Origin: a virus
Length of the DNA stretch: 40,601 nt
IMG/VR virus record: IMGVR_UViG_3300023223_000295
Span: 1-40,601 of that record
Strand: one strand, 5' to 3'
Both the position numbers and the translations under genes were made by a program. Under the pieces are notes generated by a model, which did no database searches, was not told the DNA's origin, and worked only from the letters and a program-made list of their open reading frames with translations. This document shows positions 2,896-39,948 of the stretch, piece after piece (the stretch's first letter is position 1; each line of letters starts with the position of its first letter).

Positions 2896-3169
2896 CTTAA
2901 TCAAAGTAATTAACGTGGCCGTTAACAACAAGCCTAAAATGGGCGAACCCTGTAATAGCTGTGGTTATTGCTGCCTCACTGAGGTCTGCTGTATAGGCCA
3001 AGAGTTAACAGGTTCAAGCATCGGCCCTTGTAAACTGTTAATTACAGATGGGGATAAACATACCTGTCATTTAGCAAAAAATGAAATAACACGTAAGGCT
3101 CTGGGTATCGGCACCGGTTGCTGTGCTGAAACTCAGAACGAAGCAATTCGCAAATTAACTGACGGTTAA
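2888..3169 (+). CDS. YkgJ-like cysteine-cluster protein, 93 aa
   Basis: Small metal-binding protein with CNSCGYCC (about residues 23-30), further Cys in EVCCIG and GPCK, HTCH in the middle and CC near the end. The spacing resembles the YkgJ/CxxCxxCC family, thought to bind zinc or an Fe-S cluster. I place the start at the ATG at 2888, overlapping the end of the preceding gene, not at an upstream ATG buried in that gene. Several phages carry such proteins; the role is unknown. Confidence 0.7.
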   Translation: MNNLIKVINVAVNNKPKMGEPCNSCGYCCLTEVCCIGQELTGSSIGPCKLLITDGDKHTCHLAKNEITRKALGIGTGCCAETQNEAIRKLTDG

Positions 3170-6649: not shown

Positions 6650-7093
6650 ATGAGTAAAATTGTGATCGGTGTGGACCCAGATAGTGATAAACATGGCGTT
6701 GCTGAATACTGGGACGGTAAGTTAGTTAATTTATACTCAATGAGACTAATGGACCTACGCGACCTACTGGAAGATATAAAGCCAAGAGACTCGATTGAGA
6801 TTCATATTGAAGATGTCTGCGGGATTAGTAACAGCGGCTTTCACGTTAGAGCAAAAGACCCGTTGCCAGTAAAATTAAAAAAGGCCGAAAACGTTGGCAT
6901 GTGCAAACAGGCGCAACGAGAGGTTGAATACCTGGCTGAATATTTAGGTATCAAGCTGATCAAGCATCCGATATCAAAACGCTGGAAAAGCCAGCAAGAA
7001 AAAATTCAATTTGAAAAAGTAACAGGCTGGACAGGTAGAAGTAACGAAGATACAAGATCAGGTGCATACATGGGATATTTAGGATTAAAATAA
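6650..7093 (+). CDS. RuvC-like Holliday-junction resolvase, 147 aa
   Basis: RNase-H-fold nuclease: GVDPDSDKHGVA near the N-terminus gives the first catalytic Asp, HIEDV in the middle gives a Glu, and NEDTRSGAYMGYLG at the C-terminus gives the last acidic residue, the order of phage RuvC-like resolvases. It would cut branched DNA before packaging. The start is set at MSKIVIG, with GGAG 9 bases upstream; an earlier ATG at 6602 lies inside the endonuclease gene. Last gene of the rightward arm. Confidence 0.85.
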   Translation: MSKIVIGVDPDSDKHGVAEYWDGKLVNLYSMRLMDLRDLLEDIKPRDSIEIHIEDVCGISNSGFHVRAKDPLPVKLKKAENVGMCKQAQREVEYLAEYLGIKLIKHPISKRWKSQQEKIQFEKVTGWTGRSNEDTRSGAYMGYLGLK

Positions 7094-18208: not shown

Positions 18209-18554
18209 GAACGACAACCTTCCACAATTGAGTGATGCCAGCGTGGTTAATTTCATCAATCTGAACAACCTTGTGGTCAATGCCGCTAAAAGTTATTAGG
18301 TCGGTCATTAGCGGCGTAACGCCATTATCAAGCGCGATCATTTTGTCAGTTTGCTTTATGCGCTCACCATCAATTAAGCTTGCTTTTAATTTTATTACTG
18401 CGCCGACTGCATCTAAAATATTTGTTGTGGCTCCGGTTGTTTCACCCTCGACTGGATCGAATGCGCCGCCAGTTTCCCGGGTTATTTTAACGTAGGTTTC
18501 ATCGCCGAGTGATTTTAATAATTCCGTCGATACTTTTGATAAGTCTAAGCTCAT
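18201..18554 (-). CDS. Head-tail stopper, 117 aa
   Basis: Small beta-barrel connector that plugs the portal-adaptor channel after packaging. Evidence: position after the adaptor, length near the family norm, strands YVKITRETGGAFDPVEGET and the C-terminal FSGIDHKVVQIDEINHAG. It shares one base with the adaptor stop and overlaps the gp10-like start by 8 bases. Confidence 0.75.
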   Translation of the reverse strand: MSLDLSKVSTELLKSLGDETYVKITRETGGAFDPVEGETTGATTNILDAVGAVIKLKASLIDGERIKQTDKMIALDNGVTPLMTDLITFSGIDHKVVQIDEINHAGITQLWKVVVRG

Positions 18555-19054
18555 TATAACACCCTGGCCACGCGGCTAAATCCAGAGCCGCCACCAATTA
18601 ATAGCTCTCTAACCGCAGCGTTAACTCTATCCAGTCGCGCAACAGACCACGATCCACCCTCGAAGAAGCTCCGTTTAATTACATCCACCTCTTGAGATTG
18701 AACATTTAGATTTGTTTCGTTAGTTAGTAGTGATTGGCCATTGGCTGCTGAGGCTGCTTCTGCCTGGCTGTTCTTTAATTGAATTGGGATAGAGTCTTGA
18801 TCGAATAAATCGCCAAATATAATAACGTTTAGGCGCGGATAGAGTAATGACTGATCGGATTCAACTCTGGTGCCTTTGAATCTTGATTCGATCGATGTTA
18901 GATAGTCCACAGCCAGTATTAGTTCGATTTCCCTTGCCGGTGCGTCTGCGCCGATTGTAAGGCCTCTAGCCGCCGCATAGGCTACGTATTCAGCATCACT
19001 AATAAATGTGTTGGAATTGGGAATTCCTGCGCCTGTCTCGATTATTAATGTCAC
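18554..19054 (-). CDS. Head-tail adaptor (DnaT-like / gp6-like), 166 aa, GTG start
   Basis: Adaptor ring that sits under the portal. The N-terminus LIIETGAGIPNSNTFISDAE and the helical body with YLTSIESRFKGTRV match proteins often labelled DnaT-like, which act as head-tail adaptors by position. The start is a GTG directly after a T7 run. Its ribosome binding site (TAGG) lies in the 3' arm of the hairpin at 19060-19085, so read-through transcripts from the NAD cassette should be poorly translated. First gene of the neck-tail block. Confidence 0.8.
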   Translation of the reverse strand: MTLIIETGAGIPNSNTFISDAEYVAYAAARGLTIGADAPAREIELILAVDYLTSIESRFKGTRVESDQSLLYPRLNVIIFGDLFDQDSIPIQLKNSQAEAASAANGQSLLTNETNLNVQSQEVDVIKRSFFEGGSWSVARLDRVNAAVRELLIGGGSGFSRVARVL

Positions 19055-19059
19055 AAAAA

Positions 19060-19091
19060 AAGGCCTATTGATTAGAATAGGCCTTAGTTTA
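19060..19091 (-). terminator. Terminator / RBS-masking hairpin with abutting candidate -10
   Basis: AAGGCCTAT (19060-19068) pairs with ATAGGCCTT (19077-19085); on the - strand the stem is followed by seven T and then the adaptor GTG. It therefore ends the NAD cassette and masks the adaptor ribosome binding site. Directly 5' of the hairpin is TGA-TAAACT (19094-19086), a weak extended -10 whose transcript would start inside the 5' arm and so lack the stem. Confidence 0.65.
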
Positions 19092-19119
19092 TCACGAATG
19101 GTTGATTAAATGAAAAATG

Positions 19120-20586
19120 TTAGATTTGTTGATTAACTAGGTCTCGAATTTCTTTTAATGAAGTTTCTCTAACTAATTTACCATCTTCGAAAACCGTTTT
19201 TAATAAGCCAAGACTTTCTTGTTCGTTTGTTTGTTGGTCGTACATAACAAACTTTCCATCTTCGAACTCAACCCGAAGTAATCCTTTGGCTGACTTTTTC
19301 GAACTGTCAGTTTTTGGATCTTTAAATATTGGAGTGGACGCGCCATTTTTTATAACGTTTGTTGCTTTAACAGCCGATCCGTGGGTATCCCTTGTTACGT
19401 ATTGGAATGAATAAGAGCCGACACCAAGAACGGCTTGAGGGCAAAAGCCTTTAGCCATAAGTCGTTTATTTATTTCAAGTTGGCGCTCGATTGTTATCGC
19501 GTCGCCATAGATAGCGCCAATATGCGAATCTAACAGCTTGTATCCTTTATCGGTAATTGTTCCACCAAACGTATCCCATAGGCATTCAATAAGACCCTTA
19601 CCTTCAGGTGACGAATCCAAACAAGTCCCACATAAGATATCAACAGGATCGCCAGAATCAGGACGAATAACAAGCTTACCATCACGAGCCATGATTATAT
19701 CTTGAAGCTTTGGTAAATATTCGGTAACTGTTTTCCAGAAATCCCAAGTATCACTAACGACTGATAATATCCCGGTCGGCGATTGATTGGTCATAAGATG
19801 GGTAAAGAACTCGATTTCACCCTCTTCCTGCCAACTACATGTTACGCTATGTTCTGTCGCATCCACTGAGAAACCGACCAATTCATTGTCGACATTAGCG
19901 TTATAATATTTCTCAGCGAATAAAACAGCAGGGATAGTATCGGTACCGGCAAAGCCTGAGCATAGATGACCGAAGCCTGACATAGCGGCAGCCTGGCGGC
20001 CAAACATACCCCTAAAGCTAAAGTCATGACACATAAATGGCAGCAACGATTGATCCATGCCCGATTCTTCAAATGCCTTTTTAAAGTTTCGCAGATAAGC
20101 TACTGATGTAGTTGCTGAGGTTTGAATGGGCCAGTTTTCAGTGCTCAAAACCGTTTCAATCATGTTAGGTAGCCATTCGAAATCATCGACAGTATTAACG
20201 ATCGTTATCGGGGCCACTTGGTAAGGAACCAGGCTACCTTCTTTTAACGCTTTTATGCGGATAGGGAGGTAACCCAATTCGTGAAGCGACTCAAGGTATG
20301 TCACATCAACTTCATAGCCAAGCATTGCGCTTAGAATTCGCTTATGATTCGATACAGCAAGATCACGGGGAAGATTAAAAAAGCTTTCGTTCCACTCTTC
20401 AATTAAATAATCTTTAATGAAATACTGCAATCCAACAAACACAATCGATTCATTATCCTTGATATTGCAAAGCCTATTACTTCTTGATGTGTAGTTAACA
20501 TATACCTTACTAACATCTGGATGATACGCTCTTACATGAAATTCTTTGTAAACGTCTTTTTGCATTGTTGCTGCTGAAATTGTCAT
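19120..20586 (-). CDS. nadV: Nicotinamide phosphoribosyltransferase-like (NAMPT / Namat), 488 aa
   Basis: NAMPT-family enzyme. Motifs are DFSFRGM, ATEHSVTCSW (active-site His), LVIRPDSGDPVDI, GAIYGDAI and GVGSYSFQYVTRDTHGSAVK, all at family positions, and the length is normal. Known activity: nicotinamide + PRPP to NMN. In NARP1 the related Namat joins nicotinamide to ADPR-pyrophosphate, giving NAD+ directly. It follows the Prs-like gene by two bases and no NMN adenylyltransferase is in the window, which favours the NARP1 reading. It sits inside the structural operon but is bracketed by its own terminators. The NAMPT versus Namat choice cannot be made by eye. Confidence 0.93.
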   Translation of the reverse strand: MTISAATMQKDVYKEFHVRAYHPDVSKVYVNYTSRSNRLCNIKDNESIVFVGLQYFIKDYLIEEWNESFFNLPRDLAVSNHKRILSAMLGYEVDVTYLESLHELGYLPIRIKALKEGSLVPYQVAPITIVNTVDDFEWLPNMIETVLSTENWPIQTSATTSVAYLRNFKKAFEESGMDQSLLPFMCHDFSFRGMFGRQAAAMSGFGHLCSGFAGTDTIPAVLFAEKYYNANVDNELVGFSVDATEHSVTCSWQEEGEIEFFTHLMTNQSPTGILSVVSDTWDFWKTVTEYLPKLQDIIMARDGKLVIRPDSGDPVDILCGTCLDSSPEGKGLIECLWDTFGGTITDKGYKLLDSHIGAIYGDAITIERQLEINKRLMAKGFCPQAVLGVGSYSFQYVTRDTHGSAVKATNVIKNGASTPIFKDPKTDSSKKSAKGLLRVEFEDGKFVMYDQQTNEQESLGLLKTVFEDGKLVRETSLKEIRDLVNQQI

Positions 20587-20588
20587 AA

Positions 20589-21404
20589 TTATTTCTCGTA
20601 GTTGAATTTAATTAAATCACGGCTATTGATGAATTTTTCAATCAGGTTAGACGTGAAAACGTAATCGATATTACCTTTCAATGGCTCAAGGCCTTTGGAG
20701 TAAATGCCGTGTGATGTGTGAAGTATTATTTTTCCGCAATTTGCATCCTTTAAATGCTTTGACAAGTGAATAAAAGACGCTCCTCCGTCGCAAATGTCAT
20801 CGACTATTATTACATCTTTGCCTTGCAGATCTTTATCCGGAATTGAACAGGCAATAATATTTCCAGTTGAAACATCCCGAATTTTTACGGCCTGAACATA
20901 ATCGTCATGATCGATGTATTTCATAACATCAAATATCTTTTTTGATGCTCCGATATCTGGCGCGCAGAGAATGAAATCATTTGTTATTTTTTCAATCTCA
21001 GGTAGCCGCCAACCAAACCCTACCTCCTGGCGGATAACTTCGATATTATCTATCAGCGCCGATGACACGTCAGAATGAGGATCTAAAACTGTAACCTTGT
21101 TGAAATTTAATCCGTTAATGATGTTAGTAAACACTTTTAATGAAAAAGATTGGCCGGCGCCAAACCTTCTGTCTGCCCTGGCATTCGGGATGTATTTCAT
21201 AAACAAATCAACATCGTAAACACCCATAGAGTCAAGAGCGTTTTTAATCAAGCACAATCTGATCAAGTCATTACTAGCGTCAACAGCATTAATTGACAAC
21301 ACCTTCCTGCATGATTTGTCATGTATTTTTATTTCGCAAACCTCAGCGCCGTCACTGAACGTTGTAAAATCTATCGAAGCACCCGATAAATCAAAGTTAC
21401 TCAT
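20589..21404 (-). CDS. prs: Ribose-phosphate pyrophosphokinase-like (Prs / Adps), 271 aa
   Basis: Type-I phosphoribosyltransferase fold. Motifs are PNARADRRFGAGQSFSLK (Prs: Y-A-R-Q-D-R-R), VTVLDPHSDV, CAPDIGA and the PRPP loop VIIVDDICDGGAS. It is shorter than bacterial Prs (about 315 aa). Prs makes PRPP from ribose-5-P and ATP; the NARP1 enzyme Adps instead pyrophosphorylates ADP-ribose released when defence systems cleave NAD+. Co-occurrence with the NAMPT-like gene makes a two-step NAD+ pathway. AGAGGA lies 7 bases before the ATG; GTGATATAAT just upstream may be its late promoter. Confidence 0.92.
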   Translation of the reverse strand: MSNFDLSGASIDFTTFSDGAEVCEIKIHDKSCRKVLSINAVDASNDLIRLCLIKNALDSMGVYDVDLFMKYIPNARADRRFGAGQSFSLKVFTNIINGLNFNKVTVLDPHSDVSSALIDNIEVIRQEVGFGWRLPEIEKITNDFILCAPDIGASKKIFDVMKYIDHDDYVQAVKIRDVSTGNIIACSIPDKDLQGKDVIIVDDICDGGASFIHLSKHLKDANCGKIILHTSHGIYSKGLEPLKGNIDYVFTSNLIEKFINSRDLIKFNYEK

Positions 21405-21435
21405 ACCTGTTTCCTCTGATTAGTTAATAATTCAA

Positions 21436-21445
21436 ATTATATCAC
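21436..21445 (-). promoter_or_regulatory. Candidate late promoter GTGATATAAT before the Prs-like gene
   Basis: Extended -10 (TGA-TATAAT) on the - strand in the end of the RHH gene, about 25-30 bases before the Prs-like ATG. The same ten bases occur at 33676-33685 and 39668-39677. No -35 is evident. Confidence 0.5.
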
Positions 21446-21446
21446 T

Positions 21447-21575
21447 TTACTGATTCAGACCCCTTATCACTAACTGTCTAACAGCTTGAGAAAAGTTACC
21501 TTCAAAATGCTTATCAGCAAAATCTTGGATGTCTTTAATCAGTGACAGTGTTTTAAAATTAATAAGTTTCTTCAT
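21447..21575 (-). CDS. Ribbon-helix-helix regulator, 42 aa
   Basis: Arc/MetJ-type protein: a short basic beta strand (KKLINFKTLS), then two helices (LIKDIQDFADKHF and NFSQAVRQLVIRGL) with the classic turn GNFS. GAGG lies 6 bases before the ATG. It is the first gene after the early-type promoter at 21606-21644 and likely autoregulates the NAD cassette; the AT-rich ATATATCTAGTATATAT around the -10 is a candidate operator. Short but typical of the fold. Confidence 0.85.
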   Translation of the reverse strand: MKKLINFKTLSLIKDIQDFADKHFEGNFSQAVRQLVIRGLNQ

Positions 21576-21605
21576 GATTACCTCGTATACATTTAACGAA
21601 TACAA

Positions 21606-21644
21606 AATATATACTAGATATATTGCGCGTGCAACACTTTTGTT
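21606..21644 (-). promoter_or_regulatory. Early-type promoter of the NAD cassette
   Basis: AACAAAAGTGTTGC (21644-21631) overlaps -35 TTGCAC (21634-21629). The spacer is 17 and the -10 is TATATT (21611-21606). An ATATAT-CTAG-TATATAT tract overlaps the -10. The 14-base element is identical to that at 2291-2304. Confidence 0.8.
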
Positions 21645-21662
21645 ATAATAAACGCAATAAAA

Positions 21663-21680
21663 AGCCCGAGTTACCGGGCT
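21663..21680 (-). terminator. Intrinsic terminator after the 493-aa structural gene
   Basis: AGCCCG (21663-21668) pairs with CGGGCT (21675-21680); on the - strand the stem is followed by TTTTTATT. It ends the head transcript before the NAD cassette promoter. Confidence 0.8.
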
Positions 21681-21709
21681 CTTGTTTTGTGATTTAACTC
21701 AGGTTTAAT

Positions 21710-23191
21710 TTATAAGTCTTCTTGCCACGTTCCTGTTGCTTGGCAATCCGCCGCTGCCGCCGTTGGTATCGCTGCCGCTATGGTAAACGTCTGTCCAGGT
21801 AGCGCTATAAAGTCTAAATCAACTCGCTCATTAAACTCGATTGATTCAGATGATCCAGCAACAACCGTTACAGACGCAACTTTAATGCCACCAGAAACCG
21901 TCACATTATCTGTAGCAAATTCCATTATGGAAGATGTTTTATCGATATACTGGAAGTTTAGATCGCCACCAAATGTAGGGTTTGCTCTTATTTCGAAAAA
22001 TGCGAATTTGTTAGCCTGGGTTGAAAACGATGCAAGTAACGGAAATATTTCAGCTCTGTTAACTCTTCCACCAAAAGTGACTCTATTTCTGAATGTAATT
22101 ATATTAGTTAATGCCGTGCCAACGTTCAATTGACCGTTATCTTCAGATCTTGGTGGCGTAGACCTTTTAATTATACCCTCAACAAACGAGCCAGCAGAGC
22201 CGCCAGATAGTGTTATGTTTGATGTATTGCCAAGATTCCTAGTGAGCCATCCAATTCTAAATGTTGGATTTGTTACGCTGGTTGTTGTTGATGTGTTCGC
22301 GAATTGTATTACGTGAACAAGTATAAAATCACCAGTGGCGCTATCTTCAATAAAAAACTTTATGGCACCAAATCCCAAGTATTGATATTGGATTTGATAA
22401 ACATTACCTTTCTGATGGTTTAAGTTTATTTTAGGGTCGGAATTAATTCTAGTGTCGACGTTCCAGTTTTCTTGCTTTGTAAAGTCAACCACCGGCTCGA
22501 GCCCTGCTGTTACCTGAATCCATGAGGCGACAGCTGTTGAGCTGGTAAATGCAAATGTTGATTGCGGCCCCGGTATTACGGCTTGAGCAATAACCTGGTC
22601 ATCATTTGATGCGAATATGTAGTTTGGAACCTGAGCGGTTAAGCTTATCGAAATTTCAAAAGCATTATGTTGCACGGTTCCAGCAGTTAAAGGGACAGTA
22701 AAACCAACCCCATCAATTGTTATTGTTGCATTTTCAGCGCCGCCGGCAGGTGTTGTTATAGTTAACTCTTGAGATTCACCCTCCCCATCATGGGCGTATA
22801 CTATTCCAAAATCTTCGTTTAAATAACCAAATGCAAAGACATTTTCACCAGTGATCAATCCAGCAATTTGTTGGCTGCTTGGTGTACCAACATCAAAAAC
22901 AGCAGTTAGCCTGCCCAAAGCGCCTTGTCCTGGCCTGTATTTAAGTTGTCTTAGGCTTAATATGCTAGCAAGGCCGGCCGCATCAGTACCAGTTTGGCAT
23001 GTAAACTTATTATCGACAATGCTAGATGCCCCGCTAGCACCGCTATCAATAACTGTTAAAACCTGATTTAACAGTCCGTACTCAGCACTAATTTGCGTTA
23101 CCGGAGTCATTGACTCCGCTTTGACCTCGCCAAACGCGGTTTTTTGTAATGGTTGGCTTTCTTTTGTTATTGCCGGCGGTAAAGTTCTCAT
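21710..23191 (-). CDS. Virion structural protein, conserved AFGE family, 493 aa
   Basis: Beta-rich protein with the N-terminal pattern KTAFGEVKAESMTPVTQISAEYG and LKYRPGQGALGRLTAVFDVG, which I recall from a widespread phage structural or adhesin family (also in large algal viruses). Its C-terminus is Gly/Thr-rich beta with FIALPGQTFTIAAAIPT. It follows the head genes, so head fibre or decoration is plausible; a long adhesin used on the capsid is another option. The last gene before the terminator at 21663-21680. Confidence 0.7.
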   Translation of the reverse strand: MRTLPPAITKESQPLQKTAFGEVKAESMTPVTQISAEYGLLNQVLTVIDSGASGASSIVDNKFTCQTGTDAAGLASILSLRQLKYRPGQGALGRLTAVFDVGTPSSQQIAGLITGENVFAFGYLNEDFGIVYAHDGEGESQELTITTPAGGAENATITIDGVGFTVPLTAGTVQHNAFEISISLTAQVPNYIFASNDDQVIAQAVIPGPQSTFAFTSSTAVASWIQVTAGLEPVVDFTKQENWNVDTRINSDPKINLNHQKGNVYQIQYQYLGFGAIKFFIEDSATGDFILVHVIQFANTSTTTSVTNPTFRIGWLTRNLGNTSNITLSGGSAGSFVEGIIKRSTPPRSEDNGQLNVGTALTNIITFRNRVTFGGRVNRAEIFPLLASFSTQANKFAFFEIRANPTFGGDLNFQYIDKTSSIMEFATDNVTVSGGIKVASVTVVAGSSESIEFNERVDLDFIALPGQTFTIAAAIPTAAAADCQATGTWQEDL

Positions 23192-39651: not shown

Positions 39652-39948
39652 CTATAGTTTATCGTTAATTATATCACTTAACTGATTACCACTCGGCCAC
39701 TTAGGTAAATGTGCCCAATCAATATCTTTGATTTTCTCAACAATACCGGCTATTTCATTTAACCTAGATATTGCCCGGTTGAAATTCGACTGGGAGACAT
39801 CATTAAGAAACGCGGCTTCGGTATCGCTGCGACCCTTAACCAAGTGGTCAATGATAGCCTGTTTTTGAGTCTCGCTGCTCATCCTGGTTAAACTGATGAG
39901 TAGTTCGACTCGTTTTTGTTTCTCCAGGCCGCGAACTAGCATTTTCAT
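39652..39948 (-). CDS. PapB-like transcriptional regulator, 98 aa
   Basis: Resembles PapB/FocB-type regulators: LISLTRMSSETQKQAIIDHL then VKGRSDTEAAFLNDVSQSNF and NRAISRLNEI, matching the S-S-E ... H-L-V-x-G ... N-x-x-F-x-R layout and HTH. PapB proteins control pili operons in enterobacteria; in phages they may control adsorption targets or lysis genes. Ends just upstream of the DUF5675 gene. AGGTGA precedes the ATG. Confidence 0.7.
   Translation of the reverse strand: MKMLVRGLEKQKRVELLISLTRMSSETQKQAIIDHLVKGRSDTEAAFLNDVSQSNFNRAISRLNEIAGIVEKIKDIDWAHLPKWPSGNQLSDIINDKL
39668..39677 (-). promoter_or_regulatory. Candidate late promoter GTGATATAAT before the DUF5675 gene
   Basis: TGA-TATAAT on the - strand in the end of the PapB-like gene, about 25-30 bases before the DUF5675 ATG. 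It matches the same ten bases at 21436-21445 and 33676-33685, and shares AAGTGATATAATT with the first. It could time lysis. Confidence 0.5.

Follow-up and report, generated by a model that had tools for sequence, protein, structure and literature searches.

A predicted NARP1 operon headed by a ribbon-helix-helix-type gene at a cargo site among phage virion genes

Layout of the locus and the two enzymes

The stretch of DNA analysed here, called the window, is a complete IMG/VR record of 40,601 bases. It is linear and possibly incomplete. Its 5' edge lies inside dnaB, and the genomes of three relatives are 48.6–49.8 kb, i.e. 8–9 kb longer than the window. On its minus strand, to which all the features below belong, three genes lie in the order of a 42-aa gene, adps (271 aa) and namat (488 aa), flanked by terminators. 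The 42-aa gene (21447–21575) starts with an ATG with GAGGT in front and encodes a predicted ribbon-helix-helix (RHH)-type regulator. The next gene, adps (20589–21404), is predicted to encode a Prs-like ADP-ribose pyrophosphate synthetase of the Adps/NrsA family (PHROG_619, E 2e-74). The last gene, namat (19120–20586), is predicted to encode a nicotinamide ADP-ribose transferase of the Namat/NrsB family (PRK09198, 494 bits with a cut-off of 405; PHROG_448). The first-pass annotation of this DNA had described a Prs-like and a NAMPT-like gene, adjacent and 2 bases apart, with the gene content of NARP1. The coordinates and families agree with that description: the two genes lie directly side by side on the same strand with a gap of 2 bp (20587–20588), in one operon. 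By direct reading of the sequence, all three genes of the cassette have plausible ribosome-binding sites.

The promoter P1 (21606–21634) lies upstream of the 42-aa gene and is composed of a TTGCAC –35 element (21634–21629), 17 nt and a TATATT –10 element (21611–21606). ATATAT/GTATAT-like repeats overlap it and are a putative RHH operator. A second promoter- or operator-like element, P2 (AATCAGTAAAGTGATATAAT, 21436–21455), with the extended –10 TGATATAAT, is placed between the RHH-type gene and adps. Upstream of the cassette, an intrinsic terminator (21660–21683) with the hairpin AAGAGCCCGGTAACTCGGGCTTTT and a T-rich tail closes the transcript of the upstream virion genes (–13.6 kcal/mol, z –3.0). 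Another one (19060–19085) lies between namat and Ad1 (–18.8 kcal/mol, z –5.9). The major head protein and a virion structural protein of 493 aa (21710–23191, PHROG_1645) are encoded on one flank of the cassette, and the head-tail adaptor Ad1 (18554–19054, PHROG_477, PF20557) is encoded on the other.

The signature and the selectivity clamp of Namat have been defined for the SPbetaL1 enzyme (PMC12774641). PDB entries 9w5w and 9w5x were taken as this enzyme by matching their residues to the published numbering. The NAMPT-like protein of the window scored 455 bits against the solved SPbetaL1 Namat, compared with about 200 bits against human or Xanthomonas Nampt. In SPbetaL1 numbering, D13, Y15, R40, F189, S190, R192, D215, A242, R306, D308, G360, D361, A362, G390, S391, Y396, T398, R399 and D400 are identical, and they include the whole Nampt-like catalytic centre (F189, R192, D215, R306 and D308). 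The catalytic His in ATEHS is also retained. F392 of SPbetaL1 is replaced by Y, which is also found in ICP1 NrsB. The published Namat signature is present as GSYSFQYVTRD, with Y at both adenine-stacking positions. Its Nampt counterparts are GGALLQKVDRD or GGGLLQKLTRD, and the adenine-stacking positions of the four Nampt compared hold G or A, and Q, E or K. For the stacking residue of the clamp loop, where Arg, Lys or Tyr is expected, the window has an Arg aligned with SPbetaL1 R40; the loop is shorter in Xcc and phage Nampt. The motif GSYSFQYVTRD and R38 are the residues that set Namat apart from Nampt. In the maximum-likelihood tree, Nampt stood apart as a group of its own (100/100). The window protein was placed among marine phage enzymes including ICP1 NrsB, to which it is 62% identical. 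Since the NAMPT-like protein has all the residues by which the solved SPbetaL1 Namat differs from Nampt, it is assigned to Namat on its sequence.

The Prs-like protein scored 90.5 bits against TIGR01251, under the curated Prs cut-off of 113. Its phosphate-binding loop reads VDDICDGGASF, against VDDMIDTGGTL in Prs, with a CDGG loop in place of DTGG, and it has DPHSD where Prs has DLHAEQIQGFF. In the tree, it was grouped with ICP1 NrsA (98/98; 47% identity), and bacterial Prs formed a separate group (100/100). The protein is accordingly classified as a predicted Adps, apart from canonical Prs. No Adps structure was found for comparison, and the residues selecting ADP-ribose rather than ribose-5-phosphate are defined by no solved Adps structure.

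The pair is identified as NARP1 by residues and trees, because of the Namat-specific residues, the Adps loop together with the score under the Prs cut-off, and the grouping with ICP1 NrsA and NrsB. The two enzymes are thus a new NARP1 member, and we infer their activities from those of ICP1 and SPbetaL1. NARP1 activity is on record for SPbetaL1 and bacterial systems (PMC12774641), and in infected cells ICP1 NrsAB increases the NAD+ level and overcomes Nezha (SIR2-HerA) (PMC11559045). Alternatively, the genes could encode an ordinary Prs and NAMPT, which would make PRPP and NMN and boost NAD+ or nucleotides through host salvage with a host NMN adenylyltransferase. The family models do name a ribose-phosphate pyrophosphokinase and a nicotinate or nicotinamide phosphoribosyltransferase, and Namat retains some NMN formation from PRPP in vitro (PMC12774641). 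However, the full set of adenine-clamp residues, which Nampt is without, the separate tree group of Nampt, and the low Prs score and altered loop of Adps all speak against it. An NMN adenylyltransferase (CTP_transf-like domain, PF01467) was also absent from the window, an incomplete contig, and from four relatives, and the positive control of the search worked. We therefore regard the Prs and NAMPT alternative as highly unlikely. The first-pass annotation had preferred Adps and Namat, a choice with which the clamp residues, the trees and the pairing of the genes agree; the outcome that it had named as refuting, a firm placement of the proteins with Prs and NAMPT, did not occur. Its statement that NMN adenylyltransferase is lacking holds for the window and also for the four relatives. 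It does not extend to the whole genome, since the contig is linear and starts in dnaB.

Several minor observations were made on the enzyme families. The solved protein of PDB 9ke8 is named as a nicotinamide phosphoribosyltransferase. It falls into the Namat group although its two adenine-stacking positions are Q and R, and knowing which substrate it prefers would put the clamp rule to the test. Namat relatives at 64–68% identity (L137–L145 and L160) occur in Enterovibrio, Shewanella, Pseudoalteromonas, Cognaticolwellia, Photobacterium and Reinekea genomes and are prophage or chromosomal. In the enzyme trees, namat of the locus L003 (4162–6692) falls with the window namat, whereas its adps falls elsewhere. 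The two genes would thus seem to be exchanged separately in some cases.

The insertion site

Four relatives were found by their major capsid proteins (96, 92, 91 and 71% identity), and no NAMPT-like gene is present anywhere in their records. The same site holds small proteins, HNH-type endonuclease-like genes and a DNA-methyltransferase-like gene in L006, L007 and L009, as named from their sequences, and only one gene, of about 100 aa, in L008. Because relatives with 91–96% identical capsid proteins are without NARP1 and have other genes at the same site, the cassette is read from these comparisons as a moron at a cargo site among virion genes.

The terminator on the Ad1 side is present at a conserved position in L006 and L007, both without NARP1. 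Its stem shows paired changes between the window and these two relatives (AAGGCC/GGCCTT against AAGCCC/GGGCTT). It is therefore an element of the phage backbone. An arrival of both terminators with the cassette was rejected, since the downstream one is common to relatives lacking NARP1. A moron between head and neck genes with terminators at both ends had been proposed earlier. The moron is borne out by the content of the site in the relatives and both hairpins fold, but the downstream terminator does not belong to the cassette.

In two contigs of another sample (L002 and L004), adps-namat or namat was found at 87–91% identity in different contexts, beside portal genes and beside RecT-, exonuclease- and SSB-like genes. 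The DNA similarity between the window and L002 spans exactly from the adps start codon to the namat stop codon. Therefore, the unit that they have in common is the two enzymes alone. NARP1 is seen here in small phages (about 40–50 kb) as mobile cargo at virion-gene sites.

The 42-aa gene and its promoter family

The AlphaFold2 model of the 42-aa protein has two helices (7–23 and 28–40) with a pLDDT of 75, and the strand is not formed in the monomer. The best PDB match of the model by Foldseek was ArtA (3gxq; prob 0.98, TM 0.74, with a weak E of 0.15), a DNA-binding RHH regulator. The Pfam RHH models gave no match to the window protein. As judged from the model, the gene fits an RHH protein. 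The earlier call of a 42-aa RHH regulator gene is strengthened by the ArtA-like model and by a family with a conserved promoter, and the regulator role is a predicted one.

Homologues of the 42-aa protein are found in Vibrio phage 1.090.B and Pseudoalteromonas phage XCL1123, without adjacent NARP1. A profile of these three proteins was searched against all ORFs of about 180 NARP1-type loci and gave one match, L061 (E 7e-12). In L061, a 40-aa RHH gene (3044–3166) and adps share 4 bp, and a gap of 1 bp separates adps from namat. The enzymes are 55% (adps) and about 60% (namat) identical to those of the window. The L061 cassette runs opposite to its neighbours, a tape-measure-like gene (open over 970 aa) on one side and tail and neck genes on the other. 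By gene content and order, the RHH-adps-namat arrangement recurs in a distant phage at a different virion-gene site, the tail module. The first survey of NARP1 loci had indicated that RHH is unlinked to NARP1, and this view was partly reversed by L061 in the wider survey. A 47-aa gene in L002 (2830–2970, minus strand), which is divergent from adps and RHH-like by eye, was not counted, as its model was without a convincing fold match.

A four-homologue alignment search of viral contigs yielded 25 RHH loci, including the L061 contig. This family (L217–L241) consists of RHH-like phage proteins of 40–47 aa whose genes head operons and are preceded by a conserved sigma70-type promoter, TTGACT-GTATATACT. 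Most of the 26 loci compared have TTGACT-like –35 and TATACT-like –10 hexamers at a near-constant distance of 55–60 nt upstream of the RHH start. The promoter pattern was present in 20 of the 26 loci compared with 0.55 in shuffles, and exact GTATAT/ATATAC words numbered 33 compared with 6.8; the shuffles keep composition and not relatedness, so both comparisons overstate the independence of the loci. When a matrix was built from the sequences upstream of the RHH genes in 14 other loci, the top site of the window was P1 (11.9 bits at 21640), followed by a site of 6.4 bits. A scan of the window with the generic sigma70 consensus did not detect P1, and a 7-bp inverted repeat at P1 is not significant by itself (22% of shuffles). 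The first-pass annotation had given the cassette an early-type promoter of its own. P1 was recovered blind by the family matrix, and the early timing is a prediction.

The cargo behind the family RHH genes is varied: an anti-repressor and replication genes, RecT, a PDDEXK nuclease, a PAPS-reductase-like moron, an HNH-like gene and uncharacterised proteins. The locus L217 and the window have the promoter and the RHH gene in common (82% over 147 bp), and the genes after that differ. The promoter and RHH gene thus appear as a unit joined to varied cargo. Because the RHH family heads varied operons and the same adps-namat occurs without RHH, the sequence comparisons identify NARP1 as cargo captured under a general RHH regulator rather than the regulator as a component specific to NARP1. 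The putative regulator of about 40 aa precedes NARP1 in two unrelated phages and different cargo in about two dozen loci, which makes the control of NARP1 directly testable. The conserved operator of the family can also serve as a sequence bait for more accessory operons.

Regulation of the operon and known systems

P2 has a second exact copy in the window (39668–39687), in front of a leftward gene; two exact copies compare with 0.02 expected. Within two mismatches, 10 copies were found in five related genomes, compared with 0.5 expected. Several of the copies lie just upstream of gene starts, including those of cargo genes that L007 and L009 carry at the insertion site. In relatives, a palindromic form of P2, ATCACTTAAGTGAT, leads into the extended –10. 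Therefore adps-namat may also be transcribed from a second promoter, one of the phage group, that has its own operator, and P2 could uncouple the two enzymes from the RHH promoter.

P2 is relevant to the alternative that the RHH gene is a mere neighbour, an unrelated small phage gene, and that adps-namat is driven by P2. This promoter-like element of the phage group is located right before adps, the nearest adps-namat (L002) is without RHH of this family, and L061 is the only one among about 180 NARP1 loci, besides the window, to have it. On the other hand, the overlap in L061 leaves no intergenic room for a separate promoter, no terminator was found in the 42-bp gap between RHH and adps in the window, and RHH is promoter-proximal across its family. 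A mere neighbour is thus unlikely. Another alternative is an addiction module in which RHH would be the antitoxin-like half and the enzymes the costly partner. RHH folds are frequent in type II antitoxins. In addition, intact nrsAB resisted cloning. However, a protein of about 42 aa has no spare toxin-binding tail and the family heads many unrelated operons, which makes an addiction module hardly credible.

RHH proteins commonly bind repeats about one helical turn apart over promoters. From its position and the GTATAT repeats, the RHH protein of the window probably autorepresses its own operon. The reading that we consider probable is an accessory RHH-adps-namat operon with NARP1 enzymes at a cargo site, in which NAD+ is rebuilt and RHH turns the operon down. 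The host sigma70 RNA polymerase would read the operon from P1 soon after infection, and adps-namat would also be read from P2. Adps would convert ADP-ribose and ATP to ADPR-PP, and Namat would join ADPR-PP and nicotinamide to NAD+, so that NAD+ could be remade after destruction by TIR, SIR2 or SEFIR effectors. The RHH protein would then bind the GTATAT repeats over its own promoter, lower the expression of the operon and so limit the cost of the enzymes. In ICP1, nrsAB costs fitness, is counter-selected where Nezha is absent and tends to be lost when the host is without NADase defence. This cost and the resistance of intact nrsAB to cloning give a reason for regulating the operon.

The closest characterised pair is nrsAB of ICP1 (orf228–orf229; PMC11559045), by the identities given above. 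Unlike the window genes, it is located at one end of a genome of 126 kb, and no RHH gene was detected by the profile within 2 kb upstream of it. The NARP1 of the Bacillus phage SPbetaL1 (PMC12774641) also has adps and namat in one operon, and its catalytic centre and clamp are kept in the window, identical or conservative (Y for F392). The window differs from it in its RHH-type lead gene, its own promoter-operator, its location among virion genes and its phage of about 40–50 kb. DyoEdafos NARP1 with RyDEP (PMC13232231) is likewise a NARP1 operon with an extra accessory gene. However, the extra gene encodes a cADPR glycosidase feeding the pathway in DyoEdafos and a putative regulator in the window. 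The NARP1 literature found, whose coverage is incomplete, mentions no such RHH regulator or arrangement and does not describe the control of NARP1 by phages. The RHH-led NARP1 is therefore presented as a new form.

By analogy, the anti-CRISPR-associated (Aca) autorepressors are the closest working analogue of the RHH-led operon. An Aca is a small phage DNA-binding protein that is encoded with a counter-defence gene, and repeats lie over the promoter common to both. Those Aca proteins that are characterised are of the helix-turn-helix type, whereas the window protein has an RHH-like two-helix model and is encoded by the first gene of its operon, and its repression is predicted. It is conceivable, although we hold it rather doubtful, that the RHH family is a phage-wide, Aca-like autoregulator of early accessory operons and that RHH-adps-namat is its first recognised counter-defence cargo. 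If this is true, the RHH gene and the TTGACT-GTATATACT promoter would serve as bait for counter-defence genes. In archaeal viruses, conserved early promoters have been used in finding counter-defence genes (PMC11065993), and the same logic applies to the RHH family.

Two further observations concern the elements and genes described here. The P2 palindrome, ATCA(C/G)TTAAGTGAT, leads into a –10-like TATAA before genes of the phage group (window 39668–39687 and 21436–21455; G001 6829, 16216 and 35395; G002 11872; G004 12597 and 42168). L230 and L231 each have a second, divergent RHH-like gene (MKKGIKFEAELIKLVQDYADLHYGGNFTLAVNKLLHKGLLS, 6842–6967) further downstream of their first one.
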